A DNA stretch of 24,277 bases from Eggerthellaceae bacterium UBA5906. Lineage in GTDB: Bacteria; Actinomycetota; Coriobacteriia; Coriobacteriales; Eggerthellaceae. A program made the translations under genes and the position numbers. Positions 2,453 through 24,186 of the stretch are shown piece by piece. Positions within the stretch are counted from its first letter, which is position 1. The number at the start of each line of letters is the position of its first letter. The stretch covers positions 7,821-32,097 of the forward strand of contig DJEE01000175.1 of NCBI GenBank assembly GCA_002431805.1, written 5' to 3'. The notes under the pieces were generated by a model. That model was not told the origin of the DNA. It worked only from the letters and a program-made list of their open reading frames with translations, and searched no databases.

Positions 2453-2484
2453 GGCTGCCGCATAACGAAGCTTATGCGTTGACG

Positions 2485-2516
2485 AAAGCGCCCCGGATGT
2501 ATCCGGGGCGCTTTTT
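2485..2516 (+). terminator. Rho-independent terminator after rplW
   Basis: A perfect stem of AAAGCGCCCCGGAT (2485-2498) with ATCCGGGGCGCTTT (2501-2514) is followed directly by a T-run (2512-2516). This is a textbook intrinsic terminator and marks the end of the fusA/rpsJ-rplC-rplD-rplW transcript. Confidence 0.92.
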
Positions 2517-2517
2517 G

Positions 2518-2523
2518 TATAAT
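2518..2523 (+). promoter_or_regulatory. Candidate -10 box for the ABC transporter pair
   Basis: A perfect TATAAT begins 2 nt after the terminator T-run. No convincing -35 box lies 16-18 bp upstream, because that stretch is the terminator stem. A start site near 2530 would give a leader of about 35 nt to the ATG at 2566, or an almost leaderless message for the ATG at 2533. Confidence 0.4.
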
Positions 2524-2565
2524 CAAGTTGATATGAGATACACACCCAAGGGCAAGGTGGCAGGC

Positions 2566-3267
2566 ATGGCGTTCGTGGAGTTCAACGATGTGCGCAAGGT
2601 GTACAAGATGGGCGAGGTCGAAGTGGCCGCTGCCGACGGCATGACGTTTTCATGCGAAGCGGGCGAGCTGGTAGTGGTGGTAGGCCCGTCGGGCGCCGGC
2701 AAAACAACGCTGCTGAACATGCTTGGTGGCATGGACTCGTGCACGTCGGGCACTATCATGCTTGACGGTCGCGAAATCAGCTCGTTTTCCGAAAAACAGC
2801 TTACGCAGTACCGACGCCTGGACATCGGGTTCGTATTTCAGTTCTACAACTTGGTGCAGAACTTAACGGCGCTTGAAAACGTGGAGCTTGCCAGCCAAAT
2901 TTGCCCGCATCCGCTTGACGCCGCAAGTGTGCTTAAACAGGTGGGCCTGGCGCACCGCATGGACAACTTCCCGGCACAGCTTTCCGGTGGCGAACAGCAG
3001 CGTGTGGCCATTGCGCGCGCGTTGGCGAAAAACCCGAAGCTGTTGCTATGCGATGAACCTACCGGTGCGCTTGACTACAAAACAGGTAAGGCCATTTTAA
3101 AGCTGCTGCAGGATACGTGCCTCAATACCGGCAAAACTGTGGTGCTCATCACGCATAACTCCGCGTTTGCCGATATCGCTGATCGCGTTATCCATGTGCG
3201 CGAGGGCAAGGTTGCCAGCATGGCAACAAACGCCCATCCGGTGTCGGCCGACACGCTGGAGTGGTAG
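2566..3267 (+). CDS. ABC transporter ATP-binding protein, MacB/LolD type
   Basis: This is the cytoplasmic ATPase of a MacB/FtsE-like ABC system, partner of the permease encoded 3 bp downstream. The 233-aa protein has Walker [10 protein letters not shown] (about 40-48), a Q-loop in FVFQFYNL (Q92), the signature [15 protein letters not shown] (139-153), Walker B LLLCDE (159-164), a D-loop GALD and the switch histidine in ITHN (H197). I chose the ATG at 2566 because AAGGTGG lies 5 nt upstream. An in-frame ATG at 2533 lacks a ribosome binding site but sits just downstream of a TATAAT, so an N-terminally longer form is possible. MacB-type systems do not pump through the membrane. They use ATP to move a periplasmic or extracellular domain (family knowledge). 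The substrate is unknown. Confidence 0.93.
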
Positions 3268-3270
3268 AGC

Positions 3271-6200
3271 ATGCTCGCGTTTTCGAAAGAGGTGCTGCGC
3301 TCGATCACGCACTCGTGGGGGCGTTTTCTGGCTATTGCAGTGATAGCGGCGCTAGGCTGCGGCTTTTATGCCGGCTTGCGCATGACCGGGCCCGATATGC
3401 GCTTGGCGGGCGACACGTACTACGATGCCACCAATCTGTGCGACATCCGCGTGCTCTCCACGCTTGGCATGACCGATCAGCAAATTCAGCAGCTGCGCAA
3501 CGTTGACGGCGTATCAGGCGTTATGCCCGCTTACGAAGCCGATGTAACCTCCTCGTTGGCAGGTGCGCAGTACACGTTGCGCTTCCATTCGCTTGACGCA
3601 AGCGCCGCGGCGGCTAGCACGTGCAGCGACGGCTTGCATGTTGAGTCGTCCGATGCCAACTACATCAACCGCCCCATTTTGGTGTCCGGTTCGTGGCCTC
3701 AGGCGCCCAACGAGTGCCTGCTTTCGGCCGATGCCATTTGGACGAACGAGGTTCACCTTGGCGATACCGTGCAGGTGCTTGAGGGAACCTCCGACCTAGA
3801 CAGCACGTTTGCCGTGAAGGAGTTCACGGTGGTGGGTTTCGTGCACTCGTCGTATTACACGTGCACCACAAACACCGGGTCGACGTCGCTTGGCTCAGGC
3901 GAGCTTACCTCGTACGTGTATGTCCCCGAAGCGGCCTTCGCGCAGGATTATCCGTACACCGAAGCGTTCATCACCGTCGATGGCGCGGCGGGATTGCAAT
4001 GGCCATCGGACGCGTACCAGCAGCGCGTAGATGAGGTGTCACAGCGCCTCAACGACATCGCGCCCGAGCTTTCGGCTTCCCGTGTAAGCCAGCTGCAGGC
4101 AGACGCTCAGGCAACGCTTGATGAAAAGCGTGCTGATTACGAACGCGAAAAGGCCGATGCTGAAGCGCAGCTCAACGATGCGCAGGGCCAGCTAGACGAT
4201 GCCCGCTCGCAGCTAGACGATGCGGCGGCGCAGCTGTCAAGCGCCGCGGCACAGCTATCAAGCAGCCAGGCAGACATTGCGGCAGGCGAGCAGCAGCTGG
4301 CAAGCGGGCAGGCCGAGCATGATGCGGGACAGCAGCAGCTTACCGTCCAGCGCGAACAGGCGCAACAGGCCATCGCGCAAGCTCAAGCGCAGCTTGATGC
4401 GTCCCAGGCGCAATACGACGCGGCTATGGCGCAGCGCAGCCAGCTTGAGGTGCAGCTTGAGCAGGCCCGTGCGGCTCAGCTAGCCGATGTTGCCGCCCAG
4501 CTTGAAGCCGCCATTGCCAGCATCGATGCGCAAACCGCAGGCGTTCCCGATCAGTTGGCGGCGGGGCAGGCACAGTTGACGGCCCAGCGCGCGCAAACAG
4601 CTGCCCAGCTTGACGCGGCGCAGGCGCAACTGGACAGCGCGCAAACCCAGCTTGATGCCGCAGCGGCAAAACTCGCCTCGGGCAAGCAACAATACGCGCA
4701 AGGCCAACAGCAGTACGCGCAGGGCCAAGCGGAATACGAAAGCGGCCTGGCGCAATACGAAGACGGCCAAGCGCAGCTTGACGAAAAGCGTGCCGACGCG
4801 CAGGCGAAGTTTGCCGATGCCGAAGAGCAGCTGGCAAACGCGCAAGCCGATATCGATGCCATTGCCGAAAAAGACGCCAGCGTCTATGTGCTCGACCGCA
4901 CGAAAAACCTGGGCGCTGAAAGTTTTAAGAGCGACGCGGGACGCATCGACCAAATAGCGGCCGTGTTCCCGCTCATGTTCTTCTTAGTGGCGGCGCTTGT
5001 GTCGCTTACCACCATGACGCGCATGGTTGAAGAGGAGCGCGTACTCATCGGCACGTACAAGGCCTTAGGCTATTCAAGCGCGCGCATCACGTCGAAGTAC
5101 CTCATCTACGCCACGGTTGCCTCGGGGGCCGGCGCGGTGGTGGGCATCGTGCTGCTGTCGAAATTCTTGCCGTGGTTCATTTTGAACGCGTACTCCATCA
5201 TGTACATGGTGCCGTGCGTGCCTACGCCCTTAGACCCCGGCATTGCCGTGCTTGCTGCAGGCCTAGGCGTTGGCATCACCGTGGCGGCAACGTGGTTTGC
5301 CGCCGCCGCAACGCTGCGCGAACGCCCCGCAGCGCTGATGCTGCCGCGCGCGCCGAAAGCTGGCAAGCGCATTTTGCTTGAGCGCATCACGCCGCTGTGG
5401 CGCCGCATGACGTTCAGTTGGAAGGTCACGGCGCGCAACTTGTTCCGCTACAAGCGCCGCTTCTTCATGGCGGTGGTGGGCATTGCCGGCTGCACGGCGC
5501 TGCTGCTTACGGGCTTAGGGTTGCAAAACGCCATCAACGACATCATCGACAAGCAATATGGCCAGCTGTACCACTTCAACACCATCGTGCGTATGGACAG
5601 CCAGGCCAGCCAGGAAAGCAAAGACGCGGTTGCCGCGGCCGTGAGCGCCGACAATGGCACCTACACCTGGGTGCAAACGGGCAACAAGATCGCCTGCGCG
5701 CCCGACGACGCGGCCGAGCATCGCGTGGAGCTGGTGGTTGCCGACGATGCCGAGGCGCTGCAGCAGTTCGTGACCATGCGCACGCGCGTGGGGCAGTCGC
5801 CGCTGCAGCTTTCCGACAGCGGTGCCCTCATCAGCGAGAAGCTGGCCACACAACTGGGTGTTTCGGTGGGCGATGCCATCAACCTGTACGACGAGGACGA
5901 CATCGGCAACCTGGTGGGTCAAGCGCACAGCGTCACCGTTGCGGGCATCATGGAAAACTACGTCAGCCAATACGTCTACGTCACCTCGGCCGAATACGAG
6001 CGCGTGATGGGGCAGCCTGCAACGCTGGCCACCGTGTACGCCAACCTGTCCGACGGCACCGACCGCGATGCGTTCTCCAGCCAGATGCTTGCCATGGACG
6101 GTGTGAAAACCGTCACGTACAACGACGAAACCATTGACAGCTATCGCACCATGCTTAAAACGGTGGACAGCGTGGTGGTGGTGCTGGTGATTGCCGCCGC

Positions 6201-6564
6201 GCTGCTGGCGTTCGTGGTGCTCTACAACCTCACGAACATCAACATCACCGAGCGTGCGCGCGAAATTGCCACGCTTAAAGTGCTTGGCTTCACCCCGCGC
6301 GAGGTGGATGCCTACGTGTTCCGCGAAACGCTGCTGCTGTCCATCATCGGCGCTGCGGCGGGCCTGGTGCTCGGTATATTCATGGAGGGCTTCGTTATCA
6401 CCACGGCAGAGGTGGACCAGGTCATGTTCGGACGCGACATCCATGGGCTAAGCTTCGTCATAGCTTTCGTGCTCACCATGGTGTTCTCGGTCATTGTGGC
6501 CATTGCCATGCGCGGCAAACTGCGCCGCATCAACATGGTGGAAAGCCTGAAGTCAAATGAGTAG
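3271..6564 (+). CDS. Large FtsX/MacB-type ABC permease with extracellular coiled coil
   Basis: This is the membrane partner of the preceding ATPase, at 1097 aa about twice the size of a simple MacB permease. The order is: TM helix (about 17-36, GRFLAIAVIAALGCGFYAG); extracellular domain; a long coiled coil (about 265-535) dominated by Ala, Gln and Asp with repeats such as AQLD and QQYAQGQ; a three-TM FtsX core (about 558-690, including MTRMVEEERVLIGTYKALGY); a second N-terminal TM (about 730-750) with another extracellular domain; and a final FtsX core (about 965-1090, including EIATLKVLGFTPREV). It is therefore a tandem duplication of the MacB fold with a coiled coil in the first half. Similar giant permeases are common in Gram-positive bacteria and act on the cell surface. 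The substrate cannot be read from sequence. The start is set by spacing to the ATPase stop, with only a weak ribosome binding site. Confidence 0.9.
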   Translation: MLAFSKEVLRSITHSWGRFLAIAVIAALGCGFYAGLRMTGPDMRLAGDTYYDATNLCDIRVLSTLGMTDQQIQQLRNVDGVSGVMPAYEADVTSSLAGAQYTLRFHSLDASAAAASTCSDGLHVESSDANYINRPILVSGSWPQAPNECLLSADAIWTNEVHLGDTVQVLEGTSDLDSTFAVKEFTVVGFVHSSYYTCTTNTGSTSLGSGELTSYVYVPEAAFAQDYPYTEAFITVDGAAGLQWPSDAYQQRVDEVSQRLNDIAPELSASRVSQLQADAQATLDEKRADYEREKADAEAQLNDAQGQLDDARSQLDDAAAQLSSAAAQLSSSQADIAAGEQQLASGQAEHDAGQQQLTVQREQAQQAIAQAQAQLDASQAQYDAAMAQRSQLEVQLEQARAAQLADVAAQLEAAIASIDAQTAGVPDQLAAGQAQLTAQRAQTAAQLDAAQAQLDSAQTQLDAAAAKLASGKQQYAQGQQQYAQGQAEYESGLAQYEDGQAQLDEKRADAQAKFADAEEQLANAQADIDAIAEKDASVYVLDRTKNLGAESFKSDAGRIDQIAAVFPLMFFLVAALVSLTTMTRMVEEERVLIGTYKALGYSSARITSKYLIYATVASGAGAVVGIVLLSKFLPWFILNAYSIMYMVPCVPTPLDPGIAVLAAGLGVGITVAATWFAAAATLRERPAALMLPRAPKAGKRILLERITPLWRRMTFSWKVTARNLFRYKRRFFMAVVGIAGCTALLLTGLGLQNAINDIIDKQYGQLYHFNTIVRMDSQASQESKDAVAAAVSADNGTYTWVQTGNKIACAPDDAAEHRVELVVADDAEALQQFVTMRTRVGQSPLQLSDSGALISEKLATQLGVSVGDAINLYDEDDIGNLVGQAHSVTVAGIMENYVSQYVYVTSAEYERVMGQPATLATVYANLSDGTDRDAFSSQMLAMDGVKTVTYNDETIDSYRTMLKTVDSVVVVLVIAAALLAFVVLYNLTNINITERAREIATLKVLGFTPREVDAYVFRETLLLSIIGAAAGLVLGIFMEGFVITTAEVDQVMFGRDIHGLSFVIAFVLTMVFSVIVAIAMRGKLRRINMVESLKSNE

Positions 6565-8167: not shown

Positions 8168-8291
8168 TATATATCTTGTTACGCGACTTCAAAAGACGTT
8201 GTCGATGCGCTCTGTTTGGGCAGCGGTGCCGATTCAAACCGATCATCGTGAAGTTTTATAGCGTTATGCAAATATAGCGTATCATTTGGGT

Positions 8292-10691
8292 ATGTTATTC
8301 AGAAAGACGCATATTCGCGGTTCTGCATTGCGCTTCAATTACGTTGCGTATTTCCTCTGTGCGCTTTTATGTGCACGAATTACCTTTCCGGCTTGTGGGA
8401 CGCTACTCAGCCCCGCTTTCGGCGTGCTGGCTCTCGTCGTCTTCGGATCTGCATGCTGGCGGGCGTCGAGGGCGCATGTCGCGGTCGGCGAGTGCCATGA
8501 CGTTGTCGTGCCCGATGCATGCGCCTTCGACGCATCGGGTGGCCTGCTTCGCAGGTATGTTTCGTTTGTTGCCCTGCTCATCGTGCTGCTGCTAAATGGC
8601 ATGTTTTACGCATGGCTCATGTTGTTTGGCGTGCACTCGTCGTTCATCGGGAGTTATGGCACACTTGCCAATTATGGCGGTATGCTATTCGTCGATGCTC
8701 TTCTCGTCGGGCTTTGCTCGTTGATTGCTCATCTTGTTCGCACAACGAACGAAGCTACGTTTGATGAAAAGAAGGGTGCACGCACGCTTCTTTTGCTTGC
8801 ATGGGTTCTTGGCTGCTTGTCGTGCTATCTGTGTCTGGCCTTCTATAAAATCGTTTCGGTTCCAAACTCCTCTACCATTGCTGCCTTTGCCGGCTTGCTT
8901 GTCTCTTTGGTTGTGTGCTCGATTGCTTTTCTCATTTACGGCAGTACCGCTCATCTTGCAAAAAGCCGTGGCTGCGCAGTGATTGTCGAACCTCAGCAGG
9001 AAGACGCGGAGGAACGGCTGCAGAACCGTTTGTCCGACTTTCCTCAGCTAACCGACAGGGAAAAGCAGGTTTTGCTGCTTTTACTAGAGGGGAGGAATTC
9101 TGCGCAGTCGGCAGAGGCGCTTGATTTGAAGCCCTCAACAGTTCGAGCATACCTGCAGCGTTCCTATAAGAAGCTGAACGTTTCCGGTGGTGACGAGGCG
9201 ATAAGCCTGCTGCGTGGCGAAGAGGCCGAAGATCCAACGCCAAGCGACATACCGATTGCTCCGGAGGAACAACGAGCCACCACAGAGAGCCCTCGACGTG
9301 CAGTGTGCTTGGCTCTGGCGATACTCGCCGGTCTTGTTACATCGCTGGGCTGTGCTATGGTTCCGCTGACCGCGTCTGGCAGAGCAAGTTGGTCTCTCTT
9401 GCAGCCGGATGCCGCGTTCTACGTAGGGCTCATTCCATTCGGCATGCTGACCTTGTTGGGACGCCTCAATGCACGTTCCCTGCTTATTCGAGCACTAGGC
9501 ATGTGCTTGCTCGTTGCGAGTCTTATCGCAATCATTCCCTTGACAGCAACTGAGCCGCTTGCGTCGTGCCTTGCTTTCAGCGTCCGCCTAGCTTGGGTGG
9601 TCCTCGCGCTCGCTTTGGTCGCTTTGTTTCTGCCGGCAGCAAAAGCATGTTCGGTAAAAGAAGGCTCGTGCGCGTTTGGCGGCGCTGTCGTCGTTGCTGT
9701 GGTGCTTATGGCGGTAGCGGCGAAAACGGATATCCCGCTCAGCACGCTGGCGATAGCTTGCTGCGTTTCTTGCGCCGCCGCTGCGGTCTTGCGCTCGTCT
9801 GCGCTCGATGTCGGCAATCAGGGAACCGAATCCAACGACGACACGGCGGAATCGATCGCCGGGGCGCCGATTGTGGCGTGCTATTTCTTCGTGTGCGGTT
9901 GCGTCGCTGGATCTATGTTCGATTCTTTCAAAGGCTTGGCATATCAGGCAATCCCCATTGCATTTTGCGTTGCAACTATCATTGTGGGTGTCGTTTCCCT
10001 TACGCGCCTTGCTGCTTTGCGTAGCAGCAAGCATTCGGCGATGGTCCTTGTGTTCTTCTGCATTGCCGCTGCTTTGTGCTGCATCGCGGTGGGAAGAAGT
10101 GAAGCGATTTGGATAACGTTCGCGCTGGCGTTGTCTGCGGTTGGCGTGTCTGCGTGGCGCAACGGGGCTCTATGCGCTAAGGACGCGGGCGTTGCTGCTG
10201 TATCGCTGGGCATTGGCTTTACTGCTTGTTCCTTGATGCATCGTTTAGTGCTGCCTCATGATGCTGCTCGTCTAATGGTTAGCGTATCGAATGCTTTGGC
10301 GGTTCCCTTGGTTGCTCCTGGGCTCGCTGCAGCGGGGATGTGCCTTGCTATTGTTGCCTTGGTTGTGATGTGTGCTCGTTTCCATGATACTTTCTTGCTC
10401 TCGAAAATGGAGCGGGAATATAGCTCGCAAGACCGTAACGAGCTTGCTCATGAGTATCTCGCGGGGTGCGGTTTGGTTGGCTTGCAGCTTGAAGTGGCGC
10501 TGCTTACCATTGAAGGGCAGAGCGTTTCTGCTATTGCCGAAAAGCTGTCTTATTCTCAGGCTGCTGTGAGTGGCGCACGCACGGCGGTGTATCGAATCAT
10601 GCAGGTTCATAGCGCTTCCCAGTTGGCGCTTAAAGTTGCCAAGTTTATTGAGCATACAAACGTTTCACCTGATGAATCGCGTAGTCACTAA
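8292..10691 (+). CDS. Membrane-embedded LuxR-type regulator with two HTH domains
   Basis: This is a polytopic membrane protein of 799 aa with two LuxR-like DNA-binding domains. The order is: hydrophobic N-terminal region with about six TM helices (1-225); a good LuxR HTH (about 245-305: LTDREKQVLLLLLEGRNSAQ, then SAEALDLKPSTVRAYLQRSY, then KKLNVSGG); a second hydrophobic region with about twelve TM helices (about 325-700); and a degenerate C-terminal HTH (about 720-785: LQLEVALLTIEGQSVSAIAE, then KLSYSQAAVSGARTAVYRIM). Eggerthellaceae carry many regulators with one TM block and one C-terminal HTH. Here two such units appear fused. It starts the accessory block and lies 122 bp upstream of the secreted protein gene, so it is the likely regulator of the operon (inference). 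I prefer the ATG at 8292 over a TTG at 8286; neither has a strong ribosome binding site. Confidence 0.85.
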   Translation: MLFRKTHIRGSALRFNYVAYFLCALLCARITFPACGTLLSPAFGVLALVVFGSACWRASRAHVAVGECHDVVVPDACAFDASGGLLRRYVSFVALLIVLLLNGMFYAWLMLFGVHSSFIGSYGTLANYGGMLFVDALLVGLCSLIAHLVRTTNEATFDEKKGARTLLLLAWVLGCLSCYLCLAFYKIVSVPNSSTIAAFAGLLVSLVVCSIAFLIYGSTAHLAKSRGCAVIVEPQQEDAEERLQNRLSDFPQLTDREKQVLLLLLEGRNSAQSAEALDLKPSTVRAYLQRSYKKLNVSGGDEAISLLRGEEAEDPTPSDIPIAPEEQRATTESPRRAVCLALAILAGLVTSLGCAMVPLTASGRASWSLLQPDAAFYVGLIPFGMLTLLGRLNARSLLIRALGMCLLVASLIAIIPLTATEPLASCLAFSVRLAWVVLALALVALFLPAAKACSVKEGSCAFGGAVVVAVVLMAVAAKTDIPLSTLAIACCVSCAAAAVLRSSALDVGNQGTESNDDTAESIAGAPIVACYFFVCGCVAGSMFDSFKGLAYQAIPIAFCVATIIVGVVSLTRLAALRSSKHSAMVLVFFCIAAALCCIAVGRSEAIWITFALALSAVGVSAWRNGALCAKDAGVAAVSLGIGFTACSLMHRLVLPHDAARLMVSVSNALAVPLVAPGLAAAGMCLAIVALVVMCARFHDTFLLSKMEREYSSQDRNELAHEYLAGCGLVGLQLEVALLTIEGQSVSAIAEKLSYSQAAVSGARTAVYRIMQVHSASQLALKVAKFIEHTNVSPDESRSH

Positions 10692-10813: not shown

Positions 10814-11341
10814 ATGGCTCTGCATCATGTCGGAAAATGGGCACGCGGCGCTTGCGCCGCAGTTGCACTTACGATGTTGTCGGGTTCGTCTGTCGCATTT
10901 GCAGATGATTCTACAAATGAAGTTGCGGCAGATGAAAGTACGGCTATCGCGACAATGGCAAGCTTCGATGAAATTGTGACCCATGAAAGCTGGCCTAATA
11001 AGCCTTTCTATTTCAATTTCTACGACAACACAAGTAACGTCTCGCAGAATACGGGTGTCAAAGAAAATTCTACTTCCTTTTGGCTTGGTGTGTACAAATT
11101 CGATGTTGATTACTGTAATTTTTACGCTGACGCGTTGATTGGCGGCCAATGGATTGACTGCACTAGTCCGGGGTATGGCCGCGTTTATCGCGTTGGTCAA
11201 TATGAGCTATACAACCAAGTTTGGGAGAGGTACGGAAGGGCAACCTGCAGGCTTGGTGGATACCGTGCAGCAAATTGGCAAGGTTGGGTTTCCGGTGAGT
11301 GGACTCCTGATTGTGAAGGGAATTTCAGCGTAGCCTACTAA
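10814..11341 (+). CDS. Secreted four-cysteine protein of unknown function
   Basis: The 175-aa precursor has a clear Sec signal peptide: basic n-region (HHVGKWARG), hydrophobic core (ACAAVALTMLSGSSVAF) and an AFA|DD cleavage site after residue 30. The mature part is about 145 aa, rich in aromatic residues, with exactly four cysteines (101, 116, 145, 167), which would allow two disulfides. It ends in VSGEWTPDCEGNFSVAY. I do not recognise the family with certainty. The layout recalls small secreted proteins encoded with bacteriocin-type ABC transporters (lactococcin 972-like or DUF2712-like operons), but I see no decisive motif. The start is well supported by TAAGGTGA 5 nt upstream of the ATG. 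It is the first gene after the regulator and is separated from the downstream operon by a hairpin, an arrangement that often lets the first gene be made in excess. Confidence 0.8.
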   Translation: MALHHVGKWARGACAAVALTMLSGSSVAFADDSTNEVAADESTAIATMASFDEIVTHESWPNKPFYFNFYDNTSNVSQNTGVKENSTSFWLGVYKFDVDYCNFYADALIGGQWIDCTSPGYGRVYRVGQYELYNQVWERYGRATCRLGGYRAANWQGWVSGEWTPDCEGNFSVAY

Positions 11342-11352
11342 ATGATTGCTTT

Positions 11353-11395
11353 GGGCTGCGAAGTGTGGACTTTGCAGCCCATTTCGAAATGGAGT
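11353..11395 (+). promoter_or_regulatory. Overlapping hairpins between the secreted protein gene and the transporter operon
   Basis: Hairpin 1 pairs GGGCTGCGAAG (11353-11363) with CTTTGCAGCCC (11370-11380), 11 bp with one G-U. Hairpin 2 is the palindrome CCATTTCGAAATGG (11379-11392), whose right end overlaps the ribosome binding site GGAG (11391-11394) of the next gene. Both structures need C11379-C11380, so they exclude each other. This could be an attenuator, a processing site or a translational switch. Confidence 0.55.
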
Positions 11396-11401
11396 ACCCC
11401 T

Positions 11402-12103
11402 ATGAAATACAGAACAAAACTCGTCGTTAGCATTGTGGTGCTTGCAACATTGGCTCTAGCCGTTGTATCGTATTTGTACATTGCCGAAGTAATGCGTCAG
11501 CAAGAAGCTGCACGGCAGCATGATGAGTACATCGCGGCGCATTCTTCTGTATCGGCGGTTGGGGATACCATAGCTCTTGATTCCCACGAAGATGAAAAAG
11601 GGGCCGAAGCCGGTTATGTCGCTGGATTCGATTGGACCGGCACAGTTGAAGCCACATTGCTTGATGCTGGGTACTATAACTCTCTTGCAGATGCAGGGAT
11701 TGGCGAGGATGAGCTTGTTATTCCTAATCATTACGAAGATGATCAGGTTTCAATATTATTAATCCACATCCGCCTTAAAAACATTGACGCCACGCCATCC
11801 GGTCCGCATCCTTTTATGAGCTGGGGTACGTTTAAGGTTGCGGTGGATGATGCCGAGGAGATGCAGTCTACTGCGCTCATGGAGGTAGCATACTTCGATG
11901 GCACCTCCGAAGATGCTGAAGATCCCAAACGCAATTATTACGATTACAAGCTTGGTATCGGCGAAGAGAGGGTATTTACGGCTGCGTATTACGTGCAGCG
12001 CGAGTACTTGAATCACGATGCATATCTTGCTCCGGGGTATATCTCAACTCAGAAAAAATATGCGTTTGATATCCCTGACCCTGTTGAGGGGGTGACTCCA
12101 TGA
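11402..12103 (+). CDS. Membrane-anchored extracytoplasmic protein, function unknown
   Basis: The 233-aa protein has one N-terminal TM segment (about 5-27, TKLVVSIVVLATLALAVVSY) that probably stays as an anchor, because there is no good cleavage site or lipobox. A soluble outer domain of about 200 aa follows. That domain has alternating hydrophobic strands (VSILLIHIRLKN, YYDYKLGIGEERVFTAAYYV), suggesting a beta-sandwich. I chose the ATG at 11402, where GGAG lies 7 nt upstream and the protein begins MKYRTKL. The upstream ATG at 11342 would place the intergenic hairpin inside the coding sequence. The stop overlaps the next start (ATGA). Its position beside an ABC transporter suggests an accessory or immunity-like surface subunit (inference). 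It shares general layout with the protein at 14410. Confidence 0.75.
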   Translation: MKYRTKLVVSIVVLATLALAVVSYLYIAEVMRQQEAARQHDEYIAAHSSVSAVGDTIALDSHEDEKGAEAGYVAGFDWTGTVEATLLDAGYYNSLADAGIGEDELVIPNHYEDDQVSILLIHIRLKNIDATPSGPHPFMSWGTFKVAVDDAEEMQSTALMEVAYFDGTSEDAEDPKRNYYDYKLGIGEERVFTAAYYVQREYLNHDAYLAPGYISTQKKYAFDIPDPVEGVTP

Positions 12104-12951
12104 GTCCGGTTTTCAAATGTGAGCTGTCAAAAGCTTTTCGCAAAAAGTCATTCTTCGTTTCGCTTGCGACTGCTTTGGTAATTGCAGGAGCATCTGCGGT
12201 GCTTTGCTGCATCGGCACCTACCAAGGAACGCTGAGTGCTGTGACGGGCTACGAAACAAAATGGTTCGATCCGTCAACGCTGTCCTGCTTCAGATATTGG
12301 ATAGTTACAGACTTTCAATGGCCCACCACATATTTGTTCTTCCTCGTCTTGCCGTTGCTGGCCGCCATCCCTAATGCCCGCTCATTTCAATGGGAATTTG
12401 CAAGTGGCTACACGAACAGCGTAGTGACACGTTGCGGCAAGCGGCGGTATTTTGCAGCGAAGTCTGTGGCGGTGTTTCTGTCTAGCGGGACAATCGCGTT
12501 GATTCCCGTGATAGCAAGTATTCTGCTTGCGGCTTGTTATGCTCCTGCCCGTATCCCTGATGTAACAAGTGTTATTTATTTCGCTGTATATGACGTTAGC
12601 TTATGGTCGGAAGTGTTCTACAGCCAGCCGGTAGTGTTTGTATGCTTATACTGCGTTCTGATTTTTGCCGTATGCGGCATGTGGGGCTTGCTTGTATCCG
12701 TTTTGGGCTGCTTTGTGAAAAGTAAGTTGGCTATCATCGTTGGCCCGTATCTTGCTATGCTTGGTGTGAAATTCATCACCGAAAACGTTATACGCGATTT
12801 CATCCATGTTGAGCTAACACCTATTGGGTACTTGCGCCCTTCGGGAAACTTATATGCGCCAAATGGGTGGGTAATCGTAGCGGAGCTGGTGCTTGGCCTG
12901 ATTTTTGTGGCAGTACTGCTTTCCATGAAAAGTAGGCGTGATGTCCTATGA
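12100..12951 (+). CDS. ABC-2 type permease subunit 1
   Basis: This is a polytopic membrane protein of 283 aa beginning MSPVFKCELSKAFRKKSFFV, the usual start of ABC-2 permeases (short cytoplasmic amphipathic helix, then TM1). About six hydrophobic segments follow, including YLFFLVLPLLAAIPNARSF, a segment near 120-145 (SVAVFLSSGTIALIPVIASI), ILIFAVCGMWGLLVSVLGCF and a last one (WVIVAELVLGLIFVAVLLSM). The start overlaps the previous stop in ATGA and its own stop overlaps the next start in ATGA, so it is translated in step with its neighbours. With the second permease and the BcrA-type ATPase it forms one transporter, comparable in build to the LanFEG self-protection systems of lantibiotic producers (family analogy, not proof). 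Confidence 0.8.
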   Translation: MSPVFKCELSKAFRKKSFFVSLATALVIAGASAVLCCIGTYQGTLSAVTGYETKWFDPSTLSCFRYWIVTDFQWPTTYLFFLVLPLLAAIPNARSFQWEFASGYTNSVVTRCGKRRYFAAKSVAVFLSSGTIALIPVIASILLAACYAPARIPDVTSVIYFAVYDVSLWSEVFYSQPVVFVCLYCVLIFAVCGMWGLLVSVLGCFVKSKLAIIVGPYLAMLGVKFITENVIRDFIHVELTPIGYLRPSGNLYAPNGWVIVAELVLGLIFVAVLLSMKSRRDVL

Positions 12952-13763
12952 AACTGCTAGGGCTTATACTAAGCGATGTGAAAGAGGGCCTGCGTTACGA
13001 ATGCCCCGCCATTGCTCTGGTGGTTGCGGTTGCGATTTTGTCATGCGCATCATTGTGGCTTTCTGATTGCGAAGGCGTGCGTTCGCTTGGCGATTATCTG
13101 ACGAACATGTTTTTAGGTATGGGTTCATATACCTTTAACATTTCTTCTCCGTTTAAATTGCCCGTAGCCTGGTTGCTCTTACTGTTTTCCCTGCTATTTG
13201 CCACGCTTCGTTATCCCTATAAGGACCTATACGGTATGGGTGCTCATGTCATGATGCGTTCGGGCAGCCGCCTGAGCTGGTGGTGGGCAAAGTGCCTATG
13301 GGTGGCGCTTTCCGTGGTGCTGCTCTGTTGCCTGCTGGTTTTGGTGGCCGTGTTTTGGGCGCTCGTAACGGCAGGGACACTATCGCTGCATACGACAGAG
13401 TTCTTCCTCGATTATGTTGCGATACGCGGCGACGCTGCTGCATATTGCGAGGAGTCGGTTACGTATCTTGCTTCCATTTTCGGGTGGGTACTGGCGTTGG
13501 GTCTGGTGCAGCTGGTTGCATCGGTTGCTCTGAAGCCCGCAGCGGGGTTTGTTGCGATGGTGTCCTACCTGTTCTTCTCGTCGTTTTACGCAACGCCGTT
13601 GCTGTTGGGAAATTACCTGATGGCGCAAAGAAGCAGTGCTTTTGGCGGAATTATCGACATGATGTCCGGTATGCCGTTGTCTGTTGCTGTGAGTGTGTTC
13701 GCCGTGGCCGTTGGTGCGGTACTCATTCAGCTGATGGACGTTATCGAAAGAGGTGAAAATTGA
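12948..13763 (+). CDS. ABC-2 type permease subunit 2
   Basis: This is a 271-aa polytopic membrane protein, the second transmembrane subunit of the same transporter. It starts MKLLGLILSDVKEGLRYECP and has about six TM helices (AIALVVAVAILSCASLWL, PVAWLLLLFSLLFATLRYP, CLWVALSVVLLCCLLVLVAV, a segment around residues 180-200, VAMVSYLFFSSFYATPLLLG, and AVSVFAVAVGAVLIQLMDVI). The RYPYKDLYGMGAHVMMRSGS segment resembles the cytoplasmic coupling region of ABC-2 permeases. It is coupled to the previous gene by ATGA and to the ATPase gene by TGATG. The two permeases show little obvious similarity in sequence despite similar length, which suggests a heterodimeric channel. Confidence 0.8.
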   Translation: MKLLGLILSDVKEGLRYECPAIALVVAVAILSCASLWLSDCEGVRSLGDYLTNMFLGMGSYTFNISSPFKLPVAWLLLLFSLLFATLRYPYKDLYGMGAHVMMRSGSRLSWWWAKCLWVALSVVLLCCLLVLVAVFWALVTAGTLSLHTTEFFLDYVAIRGDAAAYCEESVTYLASIFGWVLALGLVQLVASVALKPAAGFVAMVSYLFFSSFYATPLLLGNYLMAQRSSAFGGIIDMMSGMPLSVAVSVFAVAVGAVLIQLMDVIERGEN

Positions 13764-14404
13764 TGGGTTGCACGGTTAACGGCGTGTCAAAACGCCTGTG
13801 CGGACGCGTAATCCTCGACAACGTGAGTGCGGTGTTTTCGCCAGCACAAGTTTCGGGCATCGTAGGCGTGAACGGCTCGGGCAAGACCATGCTCATGAGA
13901 ACGATTGCCGGCTTGGCTCGTCCCGACAGCGGTACGGTGACCATCGATGGGGACGTGCTGTTTCGCGACGTGTCGTTTCCCCCGAGCGTGGGTGCGCTTA
14001 TCGAGAACCCGGCGTTTATCGGCGCAAGAAGCGGTTACGACAACCTCATGTTGCTGGCACGCATTAAGGGCCTTATAGGACCCGATGAGGTGCGGGCAGT
14101 GCTCGATGAAGTGGGTCTGGGAGATGCGGGGAAGCTGAAATTCTCGAAGTACTCGCTTGGCATGAAGCAGCGGCTTGGCCTAGCGGCTGCCGTTATGGAA
14201 AATCCCCGTTTGCTGCTGCTGGACGAACCTTCGAATGCGCTGGATGCAAGTGGCGTCGAGATGCTTAAACGTCTGGTCCGCAAAAGTAGGGATTCCGGCG
14301 CGACGGTCATTATCGCGTCTCACGATATGTTGCTGATCGAAGAGCTATCTGATCGCATGTTTAGCATGGAGGCCGGCCATATCGCGGAAATCGATAGGGG
14401 GTGA
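13763..14404 (+). CDS. ABC transporter ATP-binding protein, BcrA/LanF type
   Basis: This 213-aa ATPase has Walker A GVNGSGKT (35-42), the Q-loop region ALIENPAFIGARSGYDNL with the glutamate form (E81) common in the BcrA group, an unusual signature SLGMKQ (131-136) in place of LSGGQ, Walker B LLLLDE (150-155) and the switch histidine in ASHD (H187). SLGMKQR is the hallmark of drug- and bacteriocin-resistance ATPases such as BcrA and the lantibiotic immunity proteins. At 213 aa it lacks the C-terminal extension of many BcrA proteins. I start at the ATG at 13763, which overlaps the permease stop (TGATG) and has AGAGGTGA 6 nt upstream. A preceding TTG codon is less likely. It energises the two permeases before it. 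Confidence 0.9.
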   Translation: MGCTVNGVSKRLCGRVILDNVSAVFSPAQVSGIVGVNGSGKTMLMRTIAGLARPDSGTVTIDGDVLFRDVSFPPSVGALIENPAFIGARSGYDNLMLLARIKGLIGPDEVRAVLDEVGLGDAGKLKFSKYSLGMKQRLGLAAAVMENPRLLLLDEPSNALDASGVEMLKRLVRKSRDSGATVIIASHDMLLIEELSDRMFSMEAGHIAEIDRG

Positions 14405-14409
14405 TTGTC

Positions 14410-15021
14410 ATGCATAAGCGGACTATCGTCGTTTTCGCTGTTCTCGCGCTTGTGGTCGTTGCGATTGGTGTGCGAATTGCATACGTGAACGCTTCGGACA
14501 GCAATCCCATCACCATGGAAACGTATCAAATGTCCGAATGGGTTGACTTGGATGGTTGCTTCGCCTCCAACAAGGCAAGCGAAAGTACGGACGCGTATTC
14601 GGTCAAGCTTGTTTCCGCAAAACTCACGTCGTACAACGAATACGTGAGCGAGTTCGGGCGGCAGGATTGCATGCAGGAAGGGCTTGATGCCCAAAGCGTT
14701 ATCGACATGGAATTCGAAATTAGAAACGACGGGGGAGAAGAAGGCGGGATTTTCCTACTAGGCTGGAAGATATTCCCCGAGCGACGAAACATGTACTACA
14801 TCTGGGATGCCGACCTGCTCAAGATAAATCAGCCCGAATTAGAAGGCACGCTAGGCTTTGCGGTGGCGCCTGGGACGACGAAGAACATCCACATCCCATT
14901 CACCGTGAACCTAGATGATCGAGAAAACATGTCAGAATACAAAAGCGACATCACAGACACCGATTTCGAACTGGTAATGACCAATTCCCCCATAAGAAAG
15001 GCAATCGACTTCCATCTATGA
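14410..15021 (+). CDS. Second membrane-anchored extracytoplasmic protein
   Basis: The 203-aa protein has an N-terminal TM anchor (about 4-26, RTIVVFAVLALVVVAIGVRI) and an outer domain with strand-rich segments (MSEWVDLDGCF, DAYSVKLVSAKLTSYNEYVS, VIDMEFEIRNDGG, FELVMTN). The EWVDLDG / YSVKLVSAKLTSYNEY pattern reminds me of DUF5027-like surface proteins encoded beside ABC transporters, but I cannot confirm this. Two cysteines are present in the outer domain. I chose the ATG at 14410, with AGGGGG about 8 nt upstream. A GTG at 14401 would overlap the ATPase gene by 4 bp and is possible. It is the last gene of the operon, and its TGA stop is the first base triplet of repeat copy 2. Confidence 0.75.
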   Translation: MHKRTIVVFAVLALVVVAIGVRIAYVNASDSNPITMETYQMSEWVDLDGCFASNKASESTDAYSVKLVSAKLTSYNEYVSEFGRQDCMQEGLDAQSVIDMEFEIRNDGGEEGGIFLLGWKIFPERRNMYYIWDADLLKINQPELEGTLGFAVAPGTTKNIHIPFTVNLDDRENMSEYKSDITDTDFELVMTNSPIRKAIDFHL

Positions 15022-15181: not shown

Positions 15182-15202
15182 GCCTTGGTCGGAAACCAAG
15201 GC
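15182..15202 (+). promoter_or_regulatory. Leader hairpin of rpmE (candidate ribosomal-protein leader)
   Basis: GCCTTGGT (15182-15189) pairs perfectly with ACCAAGGC (15195-15202) around a CGGAA loop, just upstream of the AAAGGAG ribosome binding site (15209-15215). L31 genes in several phyla, including Coriobacteria, have been described with autoregulatory leader RNAs. Assignment to such a class is by position and shape only. Confidence 0.5.
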
Positions 15203-15224
15203 ACGGTAAAAGGAGTACCAGACT

Positions 15225-15698
15225 ATGAAACAAGGAATCCACCCGGAGTACGTGGAGTGCACCGTCAAGTGCAGCTGCGGCAACACCTTCACCACGCGTT
15301 CCACCAAACCCGAGCTGAAGGTCGACATCTGCAACGTGTGCCACCCGTTCTACACGGGTCAGCAGCGCTTCGTTGACACCGGCGGACGCGTGCAGCGCTT
15401 CGCTGACAAGTTCGGTTCTGCTAAGGAGCAGGTGGCTGCTCGCGAGGCCGCCAAGAAGGCCGAGCGCGCCGCAAAGATCGCCGAGCAGGAGGCCGCTAAG
15501 AAGGCCGAGCGCGAGGCTAAGGCTGCTGCTAAGGCAAAGCGCGCTGAGGAGTACGCCAAGAAGGCTGCTGCCGAGGCTGAGAAGGCCGCTGAGCTTGAGG
15601 CTGCTACCGCCGCCGCTGAGGCAACCGAGGCTGCTGCCGAGGTTACTGCTGCTGACGAGGCTGCCGTCGACGCTCTGGTCGAGAACGCTGCTGAATAA
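15225..15698 (+). CDS. rpmE: 50S ribosomal protein L31 with long Ala/Lys/Glu tail
   Basis: Residues 1-67 are a zinc-type L31 ([20 protein letters not shown], then [20 protein letters not shown], then [19 protein letters not shown]). The likely zinc ligands are C16, C18, C36 and C39; an extra C12 is also present. L31 bridges the 50S and the head of the 30S subunit. Ordinary L31 proteins have about 66-90 aa. This one has 157 aa because about 90 residues of low-complexity Ala/Lys/Glu sequence follow, first rich in charged pairs ([10 protein letters not shown]), then acidic ([20 protein letters not shown]). The tail should form a single charged helix. AAAGGAG lies 9 nt before the ATG, and a strong terminator follows. 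Confidence 0.93.
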
Positions 15699-23169: not shown

Positions 23170-23184
23170 CATTCAGTTTGTATG

Positions 23185-23211
23185 GAAAGCCGTCCGCACA
23201 GGGCGGCTTTC
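23185..23211 (+). terminator. Rho-independent terminator after pyrG
   Basis: GAAAGCCGTCC (23185-23195) pairs with GGGCGGCTTTC (23201-23211), 11 bp with one G-U, around a GCACA loop and followed by TTATATATA. It separates pyrG from xerD. Confidence 0.8.
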
Positions 23212-23268
23212 TTATATATACATAACGGTAGTGCTACGTGCGGCAGGCAGCAGATGAAAGGGGAGACC

Positions 23269-24186
23269 GTGGACGATACGATTGATGCGGACGACCTGAT
23301 CGACCTGTCCGCCGAATACGTTGCGTATCTGCGCATAGAGCGTGGCAGCTCTCCGCGCACCGTCGAGGCGTACGAGGCGGACTTGCAGATGTATCGCAAC
23401 TTTCTGTGCACGCAGGGCATCGAAACGCTTTCCGCCATCACGCGCGATGCCATTGTGTCGTACGAGTCGTACCTGTTCGAACGCGGGTTTGCCGCATCGA
23501 CGGTGTGCCGCCGCGTTTCGGTGGTGAAAGGTTTCCACCGGTTTTGCGTGGCCGAAGATTACACGCAGGAAAACCCCGCCGCTGGTTTGCCGCTGCCTAA
23601 AACGCCCGAGCGCCTGCCCGATGTGCTTACCGTTTCCCAAATAACCCAGCTGCTTGACGCGCTGGTGGGCGAGGGGCCTACCGCACTGCGAGACCGCGCC
23701 ATGTTAGAGGTGCTCTACGGCTGTGGCTTGCGCGTAAGCGAGCTTGTGGGGCTTGACATGCCCGCCGTGCTGCTTGACGAGGGCTACCTGCTTATCACGG
23801 GCAAGGGCGACAAACAGCGCATCTCGCCGATATCAGGCGCTGCCGAGCATGCGTTGCGCGTCTATATAAGTGACGTGCGCAGCCAGCTGCAAAAGTCGTA
23901 TGCCAAGCCAACCGAGGCGGTGTTTTTGAACGCGCGCGGTGGCAGGCTTACGCGCCAAAGCGTGTTTAAGATTGTGGCGCGCGCCGGGCGCACCATAGGC
24001 GTTGATAACCTGCACCCGCATACGCTGCGCCACTCGTTTGCCACGCATATGCTGCAGGGTGGGGCGGATTTGCGCGTCATTCAAGACATCCTTGGCCATT
24101 CGGACATCTCCACCACGCAAATCTACACGCACGTAGATCGCAGCCACTTGCGTGAGGAGTACTTGCACGCCCACCCGCGCGCATGA
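23269..24186 (+). CDS. xerD: Tyrosine recombinase XerD
   Basis: XerD-type recombinases act at dif to resolve chromosome dimers. The 305-aa protein has the N-terminal SAM-like core-binding domain (about 12-100) and a catalytic domain with all active-site residues: R155 (GLRVSEL), K179 (TGKGDKQR), H251 and R254 (HPHTLRHSFATHML), H277 (LGHSDISTTQ) and the nucleophile Y286 (IYTHV). I place the start at the GTG at 23269, because AAAGGGGAG lies just upstream and the length then fits XerC/XerD. An ATG at 23254 (five residues longer) is possible. The pattern suits the housekeeping XerD rather than a phage integrase. No integron or prophage genes are nearby. Confidence 0.9.
   Translation: MDDTIDADDLIDLSAEYVAYLRIERGSSPRTVEAYEADLQMYRNFLCTQGIETLSAITRDAIVSYESYLFERGFAASTVCRRVSVVKGFHRFCVAEDYTQENPAAGLPLPKTPERLPDVLTVSQITQLLDALVGEGPTALRDRAMLEVLYGCGLRVSELVGLDMPAVLLDEGYLLITGKGDKQRISPISGAAEHALRVYISDVRSQLQKSYAKPTEAVFLNARGGRLTRQSVFKIVARAGRTIGVDNLHPHTLRHSFATHMLQGGADLRVIQDILGHSDISTTQIYTHVDRSHLREEYLHAHPRA

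Follow-up and report, generated by a model that had tools for sequence, protein, structure and literature searches.

Gene loss around a DUF2712-type secreted protein and its ABC transporter in Coriobacteriia suggests a toxin with built-in self-protection

A stretch of 24,277 nucleotides of contig DJEE01000175.1 from Eggerthellaceae bacterium UBA5906 (hereafter the window, meaning the whole stretch analysed) carries on its plus strand a six-gene cassette, 10814..15021, encoding a secreted protein (A), two membrane-anchored proteins (B and F), two permeases (C and D) and an ATP-binding cassette (ABC) ATPase (E). By its sequence relations A is a divergent relative of the DUF2712 family (PF10916), and the cassette appears to be the Coriobacteriia version of a DUF2712/YybN-type operon, a group to which the yybN locus of Bacillus subtilis apparently also belongs. 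Across genomes A is not clearly seen without the transporter, while the transporter often survives without A, which is the pattern expected of a toxin with its immunity genes. These gene-loss patterns suggest a secreted toxin with built-in self-protection. That A is a secreted antibacterial protein served by a LanFEG-like immunity transporter is, in our estimate, an evenly balanced proposition.

The features discussed below are as follows, in window coordinates and with the evidence in brackets.

10814..11341, plus strand: A, secreted DUF2712-type protein of 175 amino acids (open reading frame (ORF) call, Pfam relations, predicted jelly-roll)
10814..10903, plus strand: Sec signal peptide of A, residues 1-30, ending AFA (cleavage site judged by eye)
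11294..11314, plus strand: A family signature, GEWTPDC here and GxWSPDS in most members (alignment)
11342..12103, plus strand: B, DUF5027-like anchored protein with a single transmembrane segment (Pfam near miss; alternative start at 11402)
12100..12951, plus strand: C, putative ABC-2-type permease 1 (membrane spans and linked ATPase)
12948..13763, plus strand: D, putative ABC-2-type permease 2 (recurrence in relatives' loci)
13760..14404, plus strand: E, ABC ATPase with SLGMKQ at 14153-14170 (Pfam, NCBIfam, sequence)
14401..15021, plus strand: F, DUF5028-like anchored protein with a single transmembrane segment and an MPT63-like beta-sandwich (Pfam, profile comparison, predicted fold)
8286..10691, plus strand: LuxR-type gene directly upstream of the cassette (GerE match of 2.8e-18 in 2 stretches)

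A is found with the transporter across two phyla

We searched 247 genomes of the host's order (Coriobacteriales) with profiles of A and C; both searches score a limited number of first-look candidates per genome, so that misses are possible. The C profile gave 56 matches in 41 of the 247 genomes at E<=1e-10, which were sorted by hand into 37 with A, 17 without A and 2 at contig ends, leaving 54 evaluable. The presence of A is patchy, with 44 rows, two of them weak, in 33 of the 247 genomes. Forty rows lie at C cassettes and 2 at contig ends (G187:C1, with the B to F half probably on G187:C36, and G019:C2, which probably continues in G019:C81); the two weak rows (G011 and G194; E about 8e-4) sit in frames of 557 and 318 residues with no cassette. 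The co-occurrence survey proposed in a preliminary description of this DNA thus returned no clear A gene without permease C in the 247 genomes, wherever the contig left room to see one. Ten of the 41 C-bearing genomes have no A row, one of them (G109) being cut by a contig end.

A wider survey with the DNA pattern GVWSPDS[VI]-stop in 84,980 species genomes returned 49 stretches, of which 12 were chance occurrences and 2 repeated Coriobacteriales loci. The remaining 35 stretches form 34 loci in Bacillota, Bifidobacterium and one unplaced actinomycete metagenome-assembled genome (MAG). Of these 34 loci, 29 have relatives of C (E<=1e-3) and of E (E<=1e-30) no more than about 8 kb away; contig ends truncate 4, and the last, from Caldibacillus, has E and D, no C and only a remnant of A. 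The pattern needs an intact A C-terminus, and breaks at that end are therefore missed. Relatives usually have the genes in the order A, (B), C, (extra permease), D, E, F-like; L045 and L095 have a transporter divergent from A, and in L083 C is matched ahead of A. A DUF2712 gene with permeases and an ATPase, often with anchored proteins too, recurs in Coriobacteriia, Bifidobacterium and Bacillota. The layout is no chance arrangement, since the same set of genes is found in many genomes that are only distantly related.

Copy number varies as well. Bacillus spizizenii TU-B-10 carries three tandem DUF2712-like A genes before one transporter (L087 6935-8410), with no match to PF10916. The first two look nearly identical in their mature part. 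The genome from which the window comes has another DUF2712 cassette (L023 8097-11635, G000:C36), in the order A, ATPase, anchored protein, permeases.

A is lost while the rest of the cassette is kept

A is absent from 17 of the 54 evaluable C cassettes in Coriobacteriales. Two of the 17 hold only C-terminal remnants (L165, E 3e-8; L178, E 9e-4) and one has a diverged A candidate (L161, E 8e-4); the others gave no A match at E<=1e-3. In L162, counted among the 37 with A, the gene is split. The clearest case is provided by G198 and G186, whose loci share 94% DNA identity over 3.0 kb upstream and 3.8 kb downstream; A has been cleanly deleted from G186, where its ribosome-binding site and start codon now precede B. 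Z and B to F are intact there, with NG86 dN/dS of 0.16-0.35, values that derive from the longest ORFs (those of D and E include overlapping extensions) and span the time both before and after the loss of A. Genome G223 has two neighbouring cassettes (L025 5385-18000), each with its own LuxR-type gene, one with A and the other without.

Outside the order, A is broken in 5 of the 34 loci. In-frame stops interrupt the gene in two species, B. bohemicum (L082) and B. pongonis (L085); it is reduced to a C-terminal remnant in Lb. corticis (L099, motif only) and Caldibacillus (L089), and its N-terminus is out of frame in Lpb. nangangensis (L097). C and E remain open in L082, L085, L097 and L099. In L103, A may lack an in-frame signal peptide.

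The cassette is also found on Lactococcus plasmids. On the 8.5-kb pLlaUC109V it is the only evident cargo, the remainder being rep, mobC, a relaxase-like ORF and two hypothetical ORFs. Plasmid pUC063E carries the same 3.95-kb cassette region without a difference, a third plasmid (9.0 kb) carries it at 99.4% identity, and on an 82-kb Lactococcus plasmid a related cassette copy adjoins a Blp-type bacteriocin cluster with its exporter. Three membrane-protein ORFs of the cassette (L031 4328-6540) are missing from the gene table of pLlaUC109V in the plasmid database.

The proposal of a secreted polypeptide with self-protection is therefore supported in part, by the asymmetry of loss, the strict linkage and the Lactococcus plasmid cargo.

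A and F are predicted beta-sandwich proteins

A had been described as matching no nameable family. This did not hold: P0001, the database cluster identical to A, carries PF10916 in precomputed Pfam annotation, and the protein goes with DUF2712, itself a family of unassigned function. A local hmmscan of the window protein gave no Pfam match at E<=1; among 38 aligned A members, PF10916 is matched by 26 (E<=0.1; best 6.4e-9), a set that does not include the window protein. Residues A30, K83, W163, P165 and D166 are invariant in the 38 sequences and are shared with the members that match PF10916. In the signal region, A28 and A30 are invariant in 16 aligned members.

As first described, A has a Sec-type signal (judged by eye) and a mature part with four cysteines (C101, C116, C145 and C167, of five in all). 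Within the 38, the complete set is confined to the window protein and the 4 members closest to it (P0002, P0003, P0004 and P0006), and so does not define the family. A model built from the 38 sequences gave a confident all-beta domain for residues 61 to 175 (block-mean predicted local distance difference test score, pLDDT, 87 to 97). The fold search identified a common jelly-roll, or beta-sandwich, with carbohydrate-binding modules among the matches and no close structural match. Neither the profile search nor the structure prediction turned up an enzyme or adhesin family.

A single membrane helix stands at the N-terminus of both B and F. B scores 24.1 bits against DUF5027 (PF16430; E 3.3e-5), a near miss below the curated cut-off of 25. 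F scores 19.2 bits against DUF5028 (PF16431), below the cut-off of 29.9, and 20 of 28 aligned relatives match that family at E<=0.1 (best 1.1e-11). The predicted fold of F is an MPT63-like beta-sandwich behind its helix, resembling beta-sandwich proteins of Gram-positive bacteria, some of which are annotated as lipoproteins. Profile comparison indicated that F is related to B.

These folds bear on an explanation that involves no killing, in which A would be secreted to serve in the structure or homeostasis of the envelope, perhaps by binding glycans, and would be installed, recycled or sensed by the ABC complex together with B and F. The carbohydrate-binding modules among the fold matches of A and the likeness of F to Gram-positive sandwich proteins, some annotated as lipoproteins, are consistent with such a role, as are the strict linkage of A to C and the matched rates of the two genes. 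Against an envelope role stand the 17 of 54 cassettes that have no A, one of them through a clean deletion that left all else intact, the patchy presence of A, and a small mobilizable plasmid whose only evident cargo is the cassette. We regard this explanation as rather unlikely.

The transporter and its neighbours

The six ORFs are real and stand in the order first given, A to F, and the tight overlaps noted from 12100 onwards amount to 4 shared bases at each of the B/C, C/D, D/E and E/F junctions. The ORF of B opens immediately after the A stop, and the ATG at 11402 has the better ribosome-binding site by eye. A simple hydropathy count gives 5 membrane spans for C and 6 for D; neither had a Pfam match in the scan, and the label ABC-2-type for C is suggested by its spans and the linked ATPase. 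In E the SLGMKQ sequence replaces the usual ABC signature. As to the proposed BcrA/LanF type of E, its best match in NCBIfam is the lantibiotic-protection model TIGR03740, though at 157.7 bits it falls far short of the cut-off of 309.75. No lantibiotic modification enzyme, and no precursor gene, was found in the 18 window proteins scanned (part of the scan used Pfam only, at E<=1e-5, and precursors were not sought in ORFs of <60 amino acids).

The affinity of E for lantibiotic protection raises the possibility that the cassette guards against a foreign antimicrobial, with A as a secreted decoy that binds the compound and the ABC-B-F complex expelling it. One ATPase, two permeases and anchored proteins make a set like LanFEG plus LanI, and A is dispensable in relatives. 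An unanchored secreted decoy would, however, shield neighbours as well as the producer, and several of the Rok-bound units tabulated with yybN in PMC2978689 are antimicrobial-production loci. We consider a decoy improbable.

In L018, L019, L025 (both cassettes) and L026, too, a LuxR-type relative immediately precedes the cassette, as would fit a protein pheromone sensed by way of the ABC complex and the LuxR-type regulator. In L015 and L016 none was detected upstream of A (L017 begins too near a contig end), and A would be large for a signal; of the explanations considered, we give a pheromone the least credence.

The cassette genes have 48-57% G+C, against 58% for the window. The next gene downstream encodes ribosomal protein L31 and, together with its L31-Coriobacteria leader, occupies 15182-15698; the protein has 157 amino acids and a long C-terminal extension rich in Ala, Lys and Glu. 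A second ABC system, an ATPase with an FtsX-type permease of 1097 amino acids, lies at 2479-6564, and a phage-integrase-family (tyrosine recombinase) gene stands at 23182-24186, immediately following the CTP synthase gene.

Proposed function of the cassette

If A is a toxin, it would be exported by Sec with removal of its signal peptide, fold outside the cell as a beta-sandwich and act on the envelope of related bacteria without the cassette. C, D and E would make up an ABC exporter resembling LanFEG/BcrAB and rid the producer's own membrane of A, or of A-bound target. The sandwich domains of B and F, on one membrane helix each, may act as LanI-like immunity proteins that capture A at the cell surface, or may pass it to the pump, and the upstream LuxR-type protein may control production.

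In addition to linkage and loss, we count for the toxin reading the three tandem A copies of B. spizizenii and the entry of the B. subtilis yybN genes in a table of Rok-bound units alongside sboA-alb, sunA, yydH and sdp. Several observations weigh against it. Strain UC063, which bears one of the plasmids, is missing from the producers named for one screen, which used a single indicator, in the available part of that report (PMC6458302). The rates of A, C and F are equal. A is intact and C is split at L113 (a MAG) and L180, and in G098 a DUF2712 gene, an anchored protein and C are followed by an ORF of 772 amino acids, with no ATPase in the stretch read (L022 8779-13291). These points hold our estimate for a toxin with its immunity transporter at no better than even.

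A broader proposal, held more tentatively and a little short of even, is that DUF2712/YybN proteins form a widespread and unrecognised class of Sec-secreted beta-sandwich bacteriocins in Bacillota, Bifidobacterium and Coriobacteriia. Each would have its own ABC exporter, with anchored sandwich-domain immunity proteins in many lineages, and cassettes without the toxin would persist as immunity-only loci. If this is true, the B. subtilis yybN operon and the families DUF2712, DUF5027 and DUF5028 would each gain a function, and a family of protein bacteriocins, present in gut commensals and dairy bacteria, would be added to those known. Even if A is no toxin, a conserved cassette of secreted protein and ABC transporter is documented across two phyla.

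Comparison with known systems

The system was first thought to be new. It is so only in part, since A goes with DUF2712 and the yybN operon is laid out in a similar way. A PF10916 search of genomes from the genus of B. subtilis gave a match in 1 of 44 (G330; 7.2e-39), at a locus that we take to be yybN-M-L-K-J of strain 168. As in the window, a PF10916 protein (145 amino acids) with an N-terminal hydrophobic stretch comes first, membrane proteins follow and an E-type ATPase comes after them; the yybN-type layout of a DUF2712 gene beside permease genes and one ABC ATPase is also that of the window cassette. The first membrane protein matches C weakly (2.4e-4) and the ATPase matches E (2.2e-81). 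The link rests on these two matches and on PF10916 rather than on our A profile, which gave no match to the B. subtilis YybN-type protein at E<=1e-3. The yybN operon differs in having three membrane proteins rather than two and no adjoining B or F gene, and the C-terminus of YybN reads GVWDEETW in place of the GxWSPDS of most A members. In the parts of the literature consulted, the operon is called one of unknown function (PMC11841835) and YybJ2KL appears in a list as an ABC exporter whose function is unknown (PMC11466899). The tabulated Rok-bound units include yybN/yybM, yybL and yybK; the same table holds sboA-alb, sunA, yydH and sdp, but also comK, rok, bhlA, yxaJ and others (PMC2978689, in part).

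LanFEG/LanI systems comprise one ATPase, two small permeases and membrane-anchored extracellular proteins. The composition of the cassette is similar, and E is nearest to TIGR03740 among NCBIfam models; the cassette differs in that E scores well below the cut-off of that model and in having no lantibiotic modification enzyme among the proteins scanned.

With lactococcin 972 and streptococcin B the cassette shares a Sec-secreted, unmodified protein of beta-sandwich fold (predicted for A) followed by presumed immunity or transport genes. A is larger, and where those loci have a two-gene immunity/transport set, the cassette has an ATPase, a pair of permeases and a pair of anchored proteins. No A member of the 38 matched the lactococcin 972 family (PF09683) at E<=0.1, and hhalign gave probabilities of 11% and 4% (against a 3-sequence alignment). 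As no profile links the two, the resemblance is one of logic, not of membership. It extends to the genetic setting: lactococcin 972 is encoded with putative immunity genes on a small lactococcal plasmid, the 11-kb pBL1 (PMC4055356, in part), and the cassette too is found on a small lactococcal plasmid. In pneumococci the lactococcin 972-like scb locus is complete in 414 of 571 genomes and reduced to ScbBC, that is, to its non-bacteriocin genes, in 157, according to the portion of PMC11796350 consulted; bacteriocin-less variants of that locus thus occur in nature, with the same split as is seen in the cassettes that have lost A.
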